64,000 nucleotides of DNA from a bacterium (GTDB lineage Bacteria > Bacillota > Clostridia > Christensenellales > Aristaeellaceae): the NCBI GenBank assembly GCA_029009515.1, contig JAQXJZ010000112.1, positions 1 to 64,000 on the forward strand. The letters are read 5' to 3'. Shown piece after piece: positions 8,857-61,516 of this stretch (position 1 is the first letter of the stretch; the number at the start of each line of letters is the position of its first letter). A model generated the notes under the pieces. It was not told the DNA's origin, ran no database searches, and saw only the letters and a list, made by a program, of their open reading frames with translations. The position numbers were made by a program, and so were the translations under genes.

Positions 8857-9609
8857 ATGAAAGAGTTTTTTGGCTACTTCTTCGGCGAGGGGAGCGAACC
8901 GGAGTTTGCCATCTTCACGCTGGCGCATCTTCTGCCCGTGCTGGTGATGATTGGGGTGATTGCGCTCATCATCCGCAAGCGCGAATGGATCCGTCAATGG
9001 AAGCATGAAGAAGCGCTTCGCTGGGTGCTGGCCTTTGCGCTCATTCTGGCGGATATGTCGTATTACTGGCGGCTGGTGGGCATGCCGCAGCTGCATCCCG
9101 GCCCGGTGGAAAACCTGCCCATCGGCGTGTGCGGCTGGGCGGTGATCCTGTGCAGCTATCTGGTCATCAGCAAAAAGCAGACGCTGTTTGACATCAGCTA
9201 TTTCTGGCTTTTGTCCGGGTCGCTGTTTGCGCTCATCACGCCCACGCCGCTCACCTTCACCGGCCCCACGCGCTTCCGCTATTACCAGTTCTGGCTGGAG
9301 CACACGCTGGGCTATGTGGCCATCTTCTACATGATTTTTGTGCACGGCATGCGGCCCACGGTGAAATCCGCCTTCAAGTCATTTGCGGCGCTGGTGGTGA
9401 TGGCCGTGCTGGCTTACTGCGTCAACCGCATGATTCCCGGCGCCAACTACCTTTACATGGCGCGCCCGGAAGCCGCCCCGTCGGTGCTGGATATCCTTCC
9501 TCCCAACTTTGCGCTGAGGCTGATCATCATGGCGGCGGTCATCATGCTGATGTACGGGCTGGCCTATCTGCCGTGGTATCTGAAGGACCGCAAGGCAAAG
9601 GCGGCCTGA
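8857..9609 (+). CDS. YwaF/TIGR02206-like integral membrane protein
   Basis: Polytopic; HLLPVLVMIG start region, MPQLHPGPVENLPIGVCGWAVILCSYLVI, GANYLYMARPE. Confidence 0.7.
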   Translation: MKEFFGYFFGEGSEPEFAIFTLAHLLPVLVMIGVIALIIRKREWIRQWKHEEALRWVLAFALILADMSYYWRLVGMPQLHPGPVENLPIGVCGWAVILCSYLVISKKQTLFDISYFWLLSGSLFALITPTPLTFTGPTRFRYYQFWLEHTLGYVAIFYMIFVHGMRPTVKSAFKSFAALVVMAVLAYCVNRMIPGANYLYMARPEAAPSVLDILPPNFALRLIIMAAVIMLMYGLAYLPWYLKDRKAKAA

Positions 9610-9620
9610 GAAAGAAAGGG

Positions 9621-9752
9621 GTGCGCGTGCGCGGACAGATCCGCAAGGCCGGGGTTGACCAGACCACGCCGCTGGTTCGCCGGCTGTCCTTTGGCATCTA
9701 CAATCAGAAGTGCAAGCCTAACCGCATGCCCATGGACTGGCTGCTGAAATGA
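9621..9752 (+). pseudogene. C-terminal-type relic of a lysophospholipase-like alpha/beta hydrolase
   Basis: 44-codon frame VRVRGQIRKAGVDQTTPLVRRLSFGIYNQKCKPNRMPMDWLLK* resembling the LSFGxYNKxFxPxRTxxDWL segment of Firmicutes lysophospholipase-family hydrolases (from memory). Confidence 0.5.
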
Positions 9753-9761
9753 CAGAGAAAA

Positions 9762-9810
9762 ACAAAACGTCCCGCTTTCCGTGCGATGGAAAGCGGGGCG
9801 TTCTTTGTTG
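9762..9810. terminator. Bidirectional-looking intrinsic terminator
   Basis: aaaacgtcccgctttccgtgcgatggaaagcggggcgttctttg hairpin with A/T flanks between convergent units. Confidence 0.7.
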
Positions 9811-9819
9811 CTTGCTTGT

Positions 9820-10704
9820 TCAGCCGATGCAGCGCGGCAGGCCGTTTTCAAACACGACCTCCTTGCGGGACAGGTACCAGGTTTCGCCCATGTCGGCGCT
9901 GCCCTGATAGAACAGGTGGATGCGTCCGTCGTCATCCTGAAACACATACGGATGGCCGGATTCGCTGCTATTCCACGCCCCGGCCGGGCCACAGGGCAGG
10001 ATGGGTTCGCTGGATACGCGGCGGAAGAACACGCCGTCCTCCGATACCGCACAGCCAATCTGCTGCGGCTTGCAGTTGTAGGACCCGCCGTAGAACAGGT
10101 AGATCTTTCCGTCCACCACCACGGTGGCGGGCGCTTCGATGCACTCGCCTTCCCATTTCAGCTCCGGCGTCAGCAGCGACTGATCCGCTAGCGCCGTCCA
10201 CGCATCCCGGCCAAAGCCGGAGCTCAGATCCGCCCACGCGCCGCCCAGCTTCTGCACGCGCATGTCGTGATCGCGGGTGGCAAAGTACAGGTGCAGCCTG
10301 CCGTGAAACACACACAGGTCGGCGTCGATGGCACGGCCGATGCACCACGTGGCTTTGGGCGCATAGACGGGGTTTTCCGGGTTCTTGGCAAAGTGCAGGC
10401 CATCGGCGGAAAAGGCATGGCAGATGGCGTCGCGCTGGCCGTTGCCGTAGCTCTGGTAGAACAGGTGCACGCAGCCGTCCAGCACGATGACGCCGGGCGC
10501 GGCGATGCCGTGCTGCTCGTAGGGCATCTCCAGCGGCACCTCACCGCAGACCGTCCAGTTGTCCAGATCATCGGAAACGGCGATGCCGATGCCAAAGCGG
10601 TAATCATTGTACCGCTGCGAAAAGTACAGGTAGTATCGGTCGTGGAAACGCACCACGGCGGGATCCTTGGCAAAGTGATTGAGCGCGGCGTGGGTAAACA
10701 GCAC
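9820..10704 (-). CDS. glycoside hydrolase, five-bladed beta-propeller (GH43/GH32-like)
   Basis: FAKDPAVVRFHDRYYLYFSQR, AAPGVIVLDGCVHLFYQSYGNG, IEAPATVVVDGKIYLFYGGS, ESGHPYVFQDDDGRIHLFYQGS. Confidence 0.8.
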   Translation of the reverse strand: MLFTHAALNHFAKDPAVVRFHDRYYLYFSQRYNDYRFGIGIAVSDDLDNWTVCGEVPLEMPYEQHGIAAPGVIVLDGCVHLFYQSYGNGQRDAICHAFSADGLHFAKNPENPVYAPKATWCIGRAIDADLCVFHGRLHLYFATRDHDMRVQKLGGAWADLSSGFGRDAWTALADQSLLTPELKWEGECIEAPATVVVDGKIYLFYGGSYNCKPQQIGCAVSEDGVFFRRVSSEPILPCGPAGAWNSSESGHPYVFQDDDGRIHLFYQGSADMGETWYLSRKEVVFENGLPRCIG

Positions 10705-10770
10705 GGCGATTCCTCCTTGAAATGCGCAACAGGCCGCCGAAGGCAGGTTCGGCGGCCATGTGTATCTGTG

Positions 10771-12186
10771 TCAGATCCTCTTCCACTTGGTGCCCTGGGG
10801 CGTGTCGATGATCTCGATGCCGCGGGCCTTCAGTTCGTCGCGGATGCGGTCGGCTTCGGCGAAGTTCCTGGCCTTCTTGGCGGCGGTACGGGCTTCGATG
10901 AGGCCGTCGATCTCGGGATCGGCAGACGCGGCGGCTTCCTCTTCCTGCTGCTTGCGGATCTTGCCGGCTTCCTCGATGAGGTTGAGGGAGAGCACGTAGT
11001 CGAAATCCTTCAGCGCAGCCAGCTTGGTGGCGTCATTGCACTTGGCCTTGAGCACGTCGTACACGGCGGTGATGGCCAGAGAGGTGTTCAGGTCGTTGTT
11101 GAGGGAGGTGAGGAAGCGCTCCTTCAGCGCGTCAAACGCGGCCTGATCCACTTCGCCGTCTTCCTTGAGGGTGGCGATGCGGGCGATCAGCTTTTCGTAG
11201 GTGGCGGCGGCGTTGTCGAGGTTCTCCCAGGAGAACACCAGATTGCGGCGGTAGTGGCTCTGCAGGCAGAACAGGCGGTACACCATGGGGTTGTAGCCCT
11301 TTTCCTTGAGCAGGCTCACGGTCAGGAACTCGCCCGTGGACTTGCTCATCTTGCCGGTATCCGTGTTCAGGTGATGCACATGGAACCAGTAGTTGCACCA
11401 CTTGTGGCCCAGGTAGCTTTCGGACTGGGCGATTTCGTTGGTGTGGTGGGGGAAGGCGTTGTCGATGCCGCCGCAGTGGATGTCCAGGTCCTCGCCCAGA
11501 TGCTTCATGGAGATGCCGGAGCACTCAATGTGCCAGCCGGGATAGCCCACACCCCAGGGAGAATCCCACTTGAGGGCCTGATCCTCAAACTTGGACTTGG
11601 TGAACCACAGCACGAAGTCGTTCTTGTTGCGCTTGTTGGTGTCCTCTTCCACGCCCTCGCGCACGCCCACGGCCAGATCATCCTCGTCATGGTCGTTGAA
11701 CACGTAGTACTTGTCCAGCGTGGCGGTATCAAAGTACACATTGCCGCCGGCCAGATAGGCCTTGCCCTTTTCAATGAGGGTTTCCACGATGTGGATGTAC
11801 TCGGCAATGCAGTTGGTGGCGGGCTCCACCACGTCCGGGCGCTTGATGTTCAGCGCGTCGCAGTCAGCAAAGAACGCGTCGGTGTAGTACTGGGCAATCT
11901 CCATGACGGTCTTGTTTTCGCGGCGGGCGCCCTTGAGCATCTTGTCCTCGCCGGTGTCGGCGTCGGAGGCCAGGTGGCCCACGTCGGTGATGTTCATCAC
12001 GCGCTTCACATTATAGCCCGCGTAGCGCAGGGACTTTTCCAGAATGTCCTCCATGATGTAGGTGCGCAGGTTGCCGATATGGGCAAAGTGGTACACGGTC
12101 GGGCCGCAGGTGTACATCTTGACGATGTCGGGGGAGTTGGGGGTGAACAGTTCCCTCTTGTGGGATGCGGAATTGTACAGATACAT
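10771..12186 (-). CDS. cysS: cysteine--tRNA ligase
   Basis: MYLYNSASHKRELFTP...VKMYTCGPTVYHFAHIGNLRTYIMEDIL; HIECSGISMKHLGEDLDIHCGG; GKMSKSTGEF; ATG at 12186. Confidence 0.97.
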   Translation of the reverse strand: MYLYNSASHKRELFTPNSPDIVKMYTCGPTVYHFAHIGNLRTYIMEDILEKSLRYAGYNVKRVMNITDVGHLASDADTGEDKMLKGARRENKTVMEIAQYYTDAFFADCDALNIKRPDVVEPATNCIAEYIHIVETLIEKGKAYLAGGNVYFDTATLDKYYVFNDHDEDDLAVGVREGVEEDTNKRNKNDFVLWFTKSKFEDQALKWDSPWGVGYPGWHIECSGISMKHLGEDLDIHCGGIDNAFPHHTNEIAQSESYLGHKWCNYWFHVHHLNTDTGKMSKSTGEFLTVSLLKEKGYNPMVYRLFCLQSHYRRNLVFSWENLDNAAATYEKLIARIATLKEDGEVDQAAFDALKERFLTSLNNDLNTSLAITAVYDVLKAKCNDATKLAALKDFDYVLSLNLIEEAGKIRKQQEEEAAASADPEIDGLIEARTAAKKARNFAEADRIRDELKARGIEIIDTPQGTKWKRI

Positions 12187-57325: not shown

Positions 57326-58831
57326 ATGTCCCAGAACACGGAAGTACAAGTTCAGCAGGAAATGACCCAGCAGCAGCTCAGCGAGCAGGAAGCCATCCGC
57401 CGCGAGAAGCTGCGCAAGCTGGTGGAGGCGGGCAACGATCCCTACACCATCACCCGCTATGACCGCACCCACACCTCCCAGCAGATTCTGGATAACTACG
57501 ATGAACTGGAAAACAAGGAAGTGTGCATCGCCGGCCGTATGATGGCCCGCCGCATCATGGGCAAGGCCTCCTTTGCCCATCTGCAGGACAACGACGGCAA
57601 GATTCAGATCTATGTCAAGCGCGACGACGTGGGCGAAGAGGACTATGCCGCCTTCAAGCAGGACGACATCGGCGATATTTTTGGCGTCAAGGGCTTTGTG
57701 TTCAAGACCAAGACCGGCGAGGTCAGCGTGCATGCCAGCCAGATCGTTCTGCTCTCCAAGTCCCTCAAGCCCCTGCCTGAAAAGTTCCATGGCCTGACCG
57801 ATACCGACATGCGTTACCGTCAGCGCTATGTGGACCTGATCATGAATCCCGAATCCAAGGATGCTCTGGTCAAGCGCTCCAAGATCATTAATGCCATCCG
57901 CCGCTATCTGGACACCCAGAACTTCATTGAGGTGGAAACCCCGGTGCTGGTGCACAACGCCGGCGGCGCTGCTGCCCGTCCCTTCATGACGCACTTCAAT
58001 GCGCTGGACGTGGACATGAAGCTGCGCATCTCCCTGGAGCTGTACCTGAAGCGCCTCATCGTGGGCGGCATGGAGCGCGTGTACGAAATTGGCCGCGTGT
58101 TCCGCAACGAGGGCATCGACACCCGCCACAACCCCGAGTTCACCCTCATGGAGCTCTACCAGGCCTACACCGACTACCATGGCATGATGGACCTGACCGA
58201 AAACATGTACCGCTATGTGGCGCAGGAAGTGCTGGGCACCACCACCATCGTCTACAACGGCGTGGAGATGGACCTGGGCAAGCCCTTTGAGCGCATCACC
58301 ATGCTGGATGCGGTCAAGAAGTACTCCGGCGTGGATTTCAATGAGATCCACACCCTGGAAGAAGCCCGCGCCATCGCCAAGGAGCACCACATCGAGTTTG
58401 AGAAGCGCCATAAGAAGGGCGACATCCTCAACCTCTTCTTCGAAACCTACGTGGAGGAGCACCTGATCCAGCCCACCTTCGTGATGGATCATCCCATCGA
58501 GATCTCCCCCCTAACCAAGAAGAAGCCCGAGAATCCCGAGTACGTGGAGCGCTTCGAGTTCTTCATGAACGGCTGGGAGATGGCCAACGCCTACTCCGAG
58601 CTCAACGACCCCATCGACCAGCGCGAACGCTTCGCCGCTCAGGAAGAGCAGTTCAAGCAGGGTGACGAGGAAGCTAACCACACCGATGAGGACTTCCTCA
58701 ACGCGCTGGAAATCGGCATGCCCCCCACCGGCGGCATCGGCTACGGCATCGACCGCATGGTCATGCTGCTGACCGATTCTTCCTCCATCCGCGACGTGCT
58801 GCTGTTCCCCACCATGAAGCCGCAGGCGTAA
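57326..58831 (+). CDS. lysS: lysine--tRNA ligase
   Basis: [83 protein letters not shown]. Confidence 0.97.
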
Positions 58832-58851
58832 AGGATTAAGAAACTTCCGGA

Positions 58852-58882
58852 AACAGCATCCTCAAAAGAGGGTGCTGTTTTT
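58852..58882 (+). terminator. Terminator after lysS
   Basis: AACAGCATCCTCaaaaGAGGGTGCTGTTTTTT. Confidence 0.85.
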
Positions 58883-59090
58883 TGCGTAAATGAAGGAAAT
58901 ATGCTAAATATGCGCGATGCATAATCCAAATAAAGGCTGCACAAGCGCTGCAGTCTGGTGCACCAAAAGTACATCAATTCACCTTTTTTATCCTTGAAAA
59001 CGAACCAGTTGAGATGTAACTTATGAAACGATAAGAGCTGGGCTGAATGCCCGTCATACGCGCTGGACAAAAAGAAGAGGAGAAGGTGCC

Positions 59091-60428
59091 ATGGCAGAAA
59101 GCTATTTTTATGACGTAACAAAGTGGCAGACCGGCAATGCCTATGATGATATTGGCGAAGTCATCAACAGCATGATCGCGGACATCAAGCAGCGTCAGAA
59201 TAATTCGGATCTCAACGACGGCGGAAAGCCTGGCGCGGTCATCTTTATTCCCTCGGGTGACTATCACCTCCGCACGCAGGTCGTGATTGATATCAGCTAT
59301 CTGAAAATCATGGGCACCGGCCATGGCTTTATCTCTTCCAGTATCCGCTTCAATACGCCGCAGGAGGAATGGAAGAACCTTCACGAGCTGTGGCCGGGCG
59401 GCAGCCGCGTTCTGGTGGATCTGCAGCCGGAAAAGGGGAATGAAAAATCCGGCGCGGCCTTTTATGTTAAGCGCGAAGGGAACCCCAGAATCAGCTCGGT
59501 TGAGTTTGCCAACTTCTGCATCGACGGCCTGCACTTTGTGGAGGACGCCCGTGCGGCTGAGCCGGAAAACACCTACGTCAACGGAAAAACCGGTATTTTG
59601 GTGGACTGCGCACACGATTCCTTCCGGATCAGCGAAATGGGCATCGTGTATCTGGAGCACGGCGTGGTCTGCTGCCACGCGGACGCCCTGACGATCCACG
59701 ACAATTTCATTGCTGAATGCGGCAACTGCATCGAGCTGCGCTGCAAGGGACAGGCGGCCAAGATTACGGATAACCTGCTGGGCGCCGGATTTTGGGGCTA
59801 TTCGATTTTTGCGGAGAATTTCGGTGGCCTGCTGGTGGGCGTGAACAATGTGTTCCCGCGCGGCAGCAGCAGCCTTCACTTCTCGGGCGTGGTGCGCTCA
59901 AGCGTGACCGGCAACCGCTTCCATTCCTTCTATCCGGGCATGCTGATTTTTGATCACAACTGTACCGAAAACCTGGTGGCCTCCAATCATTTCCTGAGGG
60001 ATCACGAGCCGTGGCCGCCTATGATGGCGTATGACAATGGTGTGGATGACGACTTTGGCCTGCTCAGAATCAATGGATGCAATAACTCCATCATGGCAAA
60101 CCATATTTCGGAAACCATTGGCAGGCAGTATCTGAAGCCCGCCGGGGTCAAGCCGGTCATCATCCATATCGAAGCCGGCCATGGCAATTATGTAGCCAAT
60201 AATCATATTGTGGCAACGACCGAGGCGGCAGACAAGAGCGGTTCGAACGGGGATGATTCCTGCTTCGGAGCGCAGGTGGGCGCGCTGCTGACGGTTGATT
60301 CGCTGGAAGAACTGGACGTTGTTGCCGTGCGCGTTGCAGAAGAAGCGTTCAGTAATACCATTCTGGACACCTGCAGCGAGCAGCAGTGCGAAGCGGACAC
60401 AGCGCGGAACAAATGCCGGTTTGTGTAA
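59091..60428 (+). CDS. GH91 family protein (inulin fructotransferase / DFA hydrolase-like beta-helix)
   Basis: YDVTKWQTGNAYDDIGEVINSMIADIKQRQ, GAVIFIPSGDYHLRTQVVIDISYLKIMGTGHGFISSSIR, VYLEHGVVCCHADALTIHDNFIAECGNCIELRCKGQAAKITDNLLGAGFWGYSIFAEN; matches IFTase motifs as I recall them. Confidence 0.8.
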   Translation: MAESYFYDVTKWQTGNAYDDIGEVINSMIADIKQRQNNSDLNDGGKPGAVIFIPSGDYHLRTQVVIDISYLKIMGTGHGFISSSIRFNTPQEEWKNLHELWPGGSRVLVDLQPEKGNEKSGAAFYVKREGNPRISSVEFANFCIDGLHFVEDARAAEPENTYVNGKTGILVDCAHDSFRISEMGIVYLEHGVVCCHADALTIHDNFIAECGNCIELRCKGQAAKITDNLLGAGFWGYSIFAENFGGLLVGVNNVFPRGSSSLHFSGVVRSSVTGNRFHSFYPGMLIFDHNCTENLVASNHFLRDHEPWPPMMAYDNGVDDDFGLLRINGCNNSIMANHISETIGRQYLKPAGVKPVIIHIEAGHGNYVANNHIVATTEAADKSGSNGDDSCFGAQVGALLTVDSLEELDVVAVRVAEEAFSNTILDTCSEQQCEADTARNKCRFV

Positions 60429-60441
60429 ACGCGCAGATCCT

Positions 60442-60470
60442 TGATGATATGATCCGATTTTGATATAATG
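60442..60470 (+). promoter_or_regulatory. Promoter (TTGATG-17-TATAAT) of the PLP enzyme
   Basis: ttgatgatatgatccgattttgatataat. Confidence 0.65.
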
Positions 60471-60480
60471 CCAGCATAGC

Positions 60481-60494
60481 TCTTGATCAAGAGG
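60481..60494. promoter_or_regulatory. Perfect 14-bp palindrome, candidate operator
   Basis: CTCTTGATCAAGAG, about 10 bp downstream of the -10 box. Confidence 0.45.
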
Positions 60495-60532
60495 GCATTG
60501 TGCATTTGGATCAATACACAGGAGGAAGTCAT

Positions 60533-61474
60533 ATGCGCAGTTTTGAGAAGGAATCCCTGGGCCTGTTTCCCACACCGATGTACCGGCTGCCCAACATCAG
60601 CCGCGAGCTGGGAACCAACGTGTGGATCAAGCGAGACGATCTGTGCGGCGTGGCGCTGGGCGGCAATAAGGTGAGAAAGCTGGAATACCTGCTGCACGAA
60701 GCCAAAACGCAGGGATATGATCTGGTAATGACCACCGGTCAGGCTCAGAGCAATCATGCCATGCTGACGGCTGCCTGCGCGCTGCGCATGGGTATGGACT
60801 GCATTCTGGTTCTGAAAAAGCGCGGCGTCACGGCCCGCAAAGGCAATCAGATTCTCAACCACCTGATGGGCGTGGAGGTCCGCTATATGGATACGGACAG
60901 CTACGAGGAGATTTATCAGGAAATGGATCGCATCGGTCAGGAAATGGGTCGCAGGGTGTACAAGATTCCGTGCGGCGGTTCCAATGCGCTGGGCTCTCTG
61001 GGCTACATTGACTGCATGAAGGAAATTGCCGATTCCGGCTGCCGCTTCGATCATCTGGTGTGCGCCTGCGGATCCGGCGGTACCGCCGCGGGCTGCGTGC
61101 TGGGCGCGAAAATTCATCTCCCCGGAACGCAGGTGATGTGCTCCATGGTGGATAACGATCCCTTTGACGTGATCGTTCCCAAGCTGATGAAGGAAGCGGC
61201 GGATCTGCTGGAGATCGATGTGGATATTCCCGTTCCGGATCTGCTGGATATGTGCGGCCCCGGCTATTCCATCCCGTCCGAGGAGGGCAATGAGGCCATC
61301 GGAATGATGCTGAAGCTGGAAGGCATTGTGCTGGACACCTGCTATACGGGCAAGGCCTTTGCCGGACTGGTGCGGCGGGCGAGAGAAGGATACTATAAGC
61401 CGGAGGATCAGGTGCTGTTTGTTCATACCGGCGGCGCAGGCGGCCTGTTTGCGCAGGACTGGGAGAAGAAATAA
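60533..61474 (+). CDS. D-cysteine desulfhydrase / ACC deaminase family PLP enzyme
   Basis: FPTPMYRLPNISRELGTNVWIKRDDLCGVALGGNKVRKLEYLLHEAKTQGYDLVMTTGQAQSNHAMLTAACA; ACGSGGTAAG. Confidence 0.92.
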   Translation: MRSFEKESLGLFPTPMYRLPNISRELGTNVWIKRDDLCGVALGGNKVRKLEYLLHEAKTQGYDLVMTTGQAQSNHAMLTAACALRMGMDCILVLKKRGVTARKGNQILNHLMGVEVRYMDTDSYEEIYQEMDRIGQEMGRRVYKIPCGGSNALGSLGYIDCMKEIADSGCRFDHLVCACGSGGTAAGCVLGAKIHLPGTQVMCSMVDNDPFDVIVPKLMKEAADLLEIDVDIPVPDLLDMCGPGYSIPSEEGNEAIGMMLKLEGIVLDTCYTGKAFAGLVRRAREGYYKPEDQVLFVHTGGAGGLFAQDWEKK

Positions 61475-61475
61475 C

Positions 61476-61516
61476 AAAAACGACGCAGACGAACATACTC
61501 GTCTGCGTCGTTTTTT
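61476..61516. terminator. Bidirectional terminator
   Basis: AAAAACGACGCAGACGAacatacTCGTCTGCGTCGTTTTTT. Confidence 0.88.

Follow-up and report, generated by a model that had tools for sequence, protein, structure and literature searches.

A predicted intracellular difructose anhydride III hydrolase of family GH91, encoded apart from the fructan genes of a clostridial genome

Characterised DFA-III hydrolases and related enzymes

Within glycoside hydrolase family 91 (GH91), intracellular difructose anhydride III (DFA-III) hydrolases without signal peptides form an established subfamily (PMC4640833, PMC11538131), and the enzyme type (DFA-IIIase) is already known in purified and crystallised form, without a secretion signal. 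In the accepted pathway, DFA-III is imported and hydrolysed inside the cell, and this is followed by cleavage by GH32 enzymes (PMC4640833, PMC8605356, PMC11538131). No signal peptide was detected by SignalP in the DFA-IIIase of A. aurescens, mutants of which at the equivalent of either catalytic residue discussed below, Asp or Glu, are inactive (PMC4640833). The enzyme from Blautia parvula NBRC 113351 (BpDFA-IIIase; LC508_RS12690) has been purified and interconverts DFA-III and inulobiose (PMC11538131), while the DFA-IIIase from the actinobacterium Arthrobacter chlorophenolicus A6 (AcDFA-IIIase) is known from the structures 5ZKS, 5ZKU and 5ZLA. The DFA-III-forming inulin fructotransferases (IFTases; 2INU, 9J4I) share the GH91 fold and the catalytic Asp/Glu pair with the protein described here, but are secreted and lack the C-terminal lid that is common to DFA-IIIases.

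The gene considered here lies in a window of 64000 nucleotides, i.e., the whole stretch of DNA that was analysed (Table 1). Its product has about 68% identity to BpDFA-IIIase (locus L014) over the full length, and shares with it the catalytic residues, the lid, the lid cysteine, the lack of a signal peptide, and a host among the gut Clostridia. The two differ in their surroundings: the Blautia gene adjoins GH32 and ABC transporter genes, whereas the present gene is flanked by lysS and by a gene for a pyridoxal phosphate (PLP)-dependent enzyme.

Table 1. Positions of the GH91 gene and associated features in the window
Feature	Position	Strand	Remarks
lysS, left neighbour	57326..58831	+	genus-native; 93-96% identity in nearest congeners
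Strong intrinsic terminator after lysS	58849..58884	+	hairpin followed by T run; 58841-58895 fold at -22.2 kcal/mol
Probable ribosome-binding site of GH91 gene, GAGGAG	59076..59081 (approximate)	+	sequence, 5' of ATG
Putative GH91 DFA-III hydrolase (DFA-IIIase) gene	59091..60428	+	445 aa, without signal peptide
Catalytic pair, D198 (codon 59682-59684) and E209 (codon 59715-59717)	59682..59717	+	alignment
Lid region, approximately residues 377-406, with C391	60219..60308	+	alignment, phmmer extent, predicted model
Promoter-like site 5' of PLP gene, TTGATG-17-TATAAT	60441..60469	+	consensus match only
PLP-dependent enzyme, D-cysteine desulfhydrase / ACC deaminase-related family, right neighbour	60534..61474	+	

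The GH91 gene and its product

The reading frame is complete, and its product includes the motifs YDVTKW (residues 7-12), GTGHGFIS (residues 75-82) and FIAECGNCIEL (residues 206-216), which are the three GH91-like motifs named in a preliminary description of this DNA. The same description held that a signal peptide is lacking, and this is borne out by a hydrophilic N-terminus, with Kyte-Doolittle means (11-residue windows) below zero over the first 18 window positions, and by the sequence upstream. The first in-frame stop 5' of the ATG is a TGA at 59010; in the frame between the two, a single CTG and a single ATA are present, and none of ATG, GTG and TTG. A signal peptide translated from a usual start codon is thus impossible, and a longer form of the protein carrying one was ruled out. 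A second GH91 gene or a secreted IFTase was searched for elsewhere in the genome and not found; the gene is intact and single-copy.

Because the DFA-IIIase subfamily is normally intracellular, the missing signal peptide is expected and not anomalous. The preliminary description had proposed a cytoplasmic hydrolase of imported DFA or of a different fructoside. The former proposal agrees with the sequence, the catalytic residues, the lid, the tree and the predicted fold, and is right but unsurprising; the latter gives way to DFA-III as the preferred substrate.

Assignment to the DFA-III hydrolase subfamily

In phmmer comparisons, the protein found its nearest solved counterparts in the A. chlorophenolicus DFA-IIIase structures, aligning with 5ZKS over residues 5-443 (E value 1e-177), a match that excludes chance resemblance. 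The scores with IFTases were far lower (E values 1e-102 to 1e-73), and these alignments stopped at residue 377-379; across GH91 structures overall, E values ranged from 1e-73 to 1e-177. The best relatives among genomes, from Faecalicatena, have 71% identity. A right-handed beta-helix homologous to inulin fructotransferase, together with the catalytic Asp/Glu pair, characterises GH91 in CAZy, and both are present. The Pfam model of the IFTase repeat (PF18835) scored 23.6 bits, below its cutoff of 30, while general beta-helix models pass. Matches to models of the copper protein NosD (PF05048, TIGR04247) were set aside as generic beta-helix likeness, at 13 bits versus the NosD cutoff of 300 bits.

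The catalytic acids, singled out for checking in the preliminary description, are both kept: D198 and E209 align with D233 and E244 of the Bacillus IFTase and with D207 and E218 of the A. aurescens DFA-IIIase. At the 13 mapped active-site positions of BsIFTase, the protein has residues known from DFA-IIIases, including, besides the catalytic pair, the conserved S84, I85, R133, Y162, Q221, F255, P256, R257 and F280. Position 278 is His, as in 5ZKS and in all 80 relatives compared, in place of the Gln of IFTases, and the Met at position 311 is shared with BpDFA-IIIase. The lid residue C391 aligns with C387 of the Arthrobacter enzyme 5ZKS. A C-terminal lid over the active site with this conserved cysteine, the mark of the DFA-III hydrolase subfamily, is present here, while it is missing from the IFTases compared; a secreted IFTase would combine a signal peptide with the absence of a lid, and the protein shows the reverse on both counts.

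The phylogeny, also envisaged in the preliminary description, gives the same placement. In a maximum-likelihood tree of 84 rows, the protein falls among gut Clostridia inside the DFA-IIIase clade, which also includes BpDFA-IIIase and, on a different branch from the present protein, AcDFA-IIIase; the two IFTases lie outside with a support of 100/100. The structure predicted by AlphaFold2 has a mean pLDDT of 84, with the lowest certainty at the tip of the lid; it matches 5ZKS with a TM-score of about 0.91 and 62% identity, and matches the IFTases less well (41% and 34-35% identity). From the sequence and the predicted model, it is very probable that the protein is an intracellular DFA-III hydrolase of the characterised GH91 subfamily, and DFA-III, rather than DFA-I or a different fructoside, would best be regarded as its substrate. 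Knowledge of the enzyme family is unchanged by the present gene.

Two other activities were weighed against DFA-III hydrolysis. An IFTase, i.e., a lyase that forms DFA-III or DFA-I, would still have the same fold and catalytic pair after losing its signal peptide, and BpDFA-IIIase too makes some DFA-III from inulin (PMC11538131). However, such an enzyme would not be expected to carry the lid, to be placed with full support apart from the branch of the IFTases, or to show the lower identity to IFTases that is seen here, and polymeric inulin would be out of its reach without a secretion route, so that we regard this origin as highly improbable. Hydrolysis of DFA-I or of a different fructoside would be consistent with the fairly long branch of the protein (0.44) and with its few substitutions at conserved columns, where there are seven departures at positions otherwise highly conserved. 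Against this, DFA-I is not used by the nearest characterised enzyme (PMC11538131), the DFA-I hydrolase known from bifidobacteria is a member of GH172 (PMC8605356), and the mapped active-site residues are identical to those of DFA-IIIases; a substrate other than DFA-III is accordingly very unlikely.

Origin of the gene

The GH91 gene was not detected in any of 16 congeners or of 299 other sampled genomes of the family; several of these genomes are incomplete. The flanking lysS and ABC-F genes are 90-96% identical to those of congeners and conserved in several of them, which makes an assembly chimera unlikely, while the likeness to the examined congeners stops at or just past the lysS terminator. 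The GC3 of the gene is 0.70, versus 0.85 for lysS and 0.79 for greA (range of lysS, greA and ABC-F, 0.76-0.85). The absence from congeners and family, the end of similarity at lysS and the lower GC3 together suggest that the gene was probably acquired horizontally at a variable site. No clean empty site was found in the examined congeners, in which the sequence 3' of lysS differs and the flanking genes are on separate contigs. The region after lysS (58900-61500 in the window, and locus L130) suggests an insertion site for mobile DNA. By eye, two ORFs of L130 (G011:C108), at 9245-10099 and 10268-10858, resemble an ArdC-type antirestriction protein and a serine resolvase.

Fructan genes elsewhere in the genome and a possible pathway

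The preliminary description had reported no fructan locus. This is correct beside the GH91 gene, where there is no sugar importer, kinase or GH32, but does not hold for the genome as a whole. Contig C90 carries a fructan-type locus (G000, L089:719-10869) encoding an AraC-type response regulator, two ABC permeases, a solute-binding protein, two GH32 enzymes, one of them with a BT1760-like C-terminal domain, and one GH13. Two more GH32-like ORFs are present on contig C28, and the genome has several PfkB-family kinases. The best match in the genome to the GH32 of the Blautia cluster is one of those on C90, with only 37% identity. For the Blautia DFA-III solute-binding protein there is no clear orthologue in the genome; the best matches have 25-27% identity, the C90 protein is not orthologous, and a Blautia-type importer was rejected on these values. 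The arrangement of the Blautia DFA-III utilisation cluster, in which GH91 adjoins GH32 and an ABC importer, is not found here. The fetched flanks include a GH32 gene in about 63 of 80 relatives, usually together with ABC permeases, several loci being truncated by contig ends. Among the neighbours scanned, however, GH91 genes without a full fructan neighbourhood are also found in gut MAGs, with no recognisable fructan gene in L007 and L015 and a PfkB sugar kinase as the sole one in L012. The isolation of the present gene from the genome's fructose-polymer genes is only mildly unusual.

In the proposed pathway, DFA-III from caramelised food or from the inulin fructotransferases of other microbes would be imported and opened to inulobiose by the GH91 enzyme, in an inverting, lytic-transglycosidase-like reaction via D198 and E209, the lid over the active site permitting action on a small cyclic disaccharide. 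A GH32 beta-fructofuranosidase from another part of the genome, most likely the one on C90, would then cleave the inulobiose to fructose. The importer and the pairing with the C90 GH32 are inferred. We put forward only tentatively, as something that may well not be so, a dispersed pathway in which a lone, horizontally acquired hydrolase has joined a pre-existing fructo-oligosaccharide importer and GH32. If true, this would allow an uncultured gut lineage outside Blautia to use DFA-III without having gained the whole cluster.

It is also conceivable, if rather unlikely, that the acquired gene no longer aids growth on DFA-III since no importer came with it. Its absence from the congeners and other family genomes sampled, its lower GC3, the lack of an adjacent GH32 or importer and the missing orthologue of the Blautia-type solute-binding protein would all agree with this. 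The gene's intact frame, conserved catalytic residues and own ribosome-binding site argue otherwise, as do the fructan ABC locus and GH32 genes in the genome and the retention of GH91 without such a locus in related gut MAGs. Such a loss would be a matter of physiology and would agree with the assignment as a DFA-III hydrolase. With that assignment, the enzyme would occur in a lineage from whose sampled congeners the gene is missing, slightly widening the possible DFA-III users beyond the described Blautia; as the full cluster is not always beside the enzyme, co-location searches would miss some carriers.

Neighbouring genes

Upstream of the GH91 gene are greA and lysS, and downstream is the PLP gene, of the D-cysteine desulfhydrase family, in agreement with the neighbours given in the preliminary description. 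The strong terminator that follows lysS makes an operon of lysS with the GH91 gene unlikely, so that the latter is probably a separate transcription unit. For the PLP gene, the ATG that follows AGGAGG was chosen as the start, in place of the GTG at 60500 given in the ORF list. The promoter-like site upstream suggests that this gene has its own promoter, although such consensus matches occur in the region in a number near chance. With this site and its own ribosome-binding site, a link between the PLP enzyme and GH91 is unsupported, and the PLP gene was detected in none of the 80 relative loci. The enzyme resembles the D-cysteine desulfhydrase / D-cysteate sulfo-lyase family, without reaching the curated cutoffs for any named subfamily, and the 16 congeners have no close orthologue (best, 37% identity).

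Pfam scans of the larger ORFs in the window revealed no sugar ABC importer and no PfkB kinase. An ORF on the minus strand at 9820-10704, approximately 48 kb from the GH91 gene, is GH43/GH32-like, with a weak match to GH32 and a better one to GH43. At 8857-9609, the encoded protein matches the Pfam family TMEM164 (E value 3e-36), which is named after a eukaryotic membrane protein.
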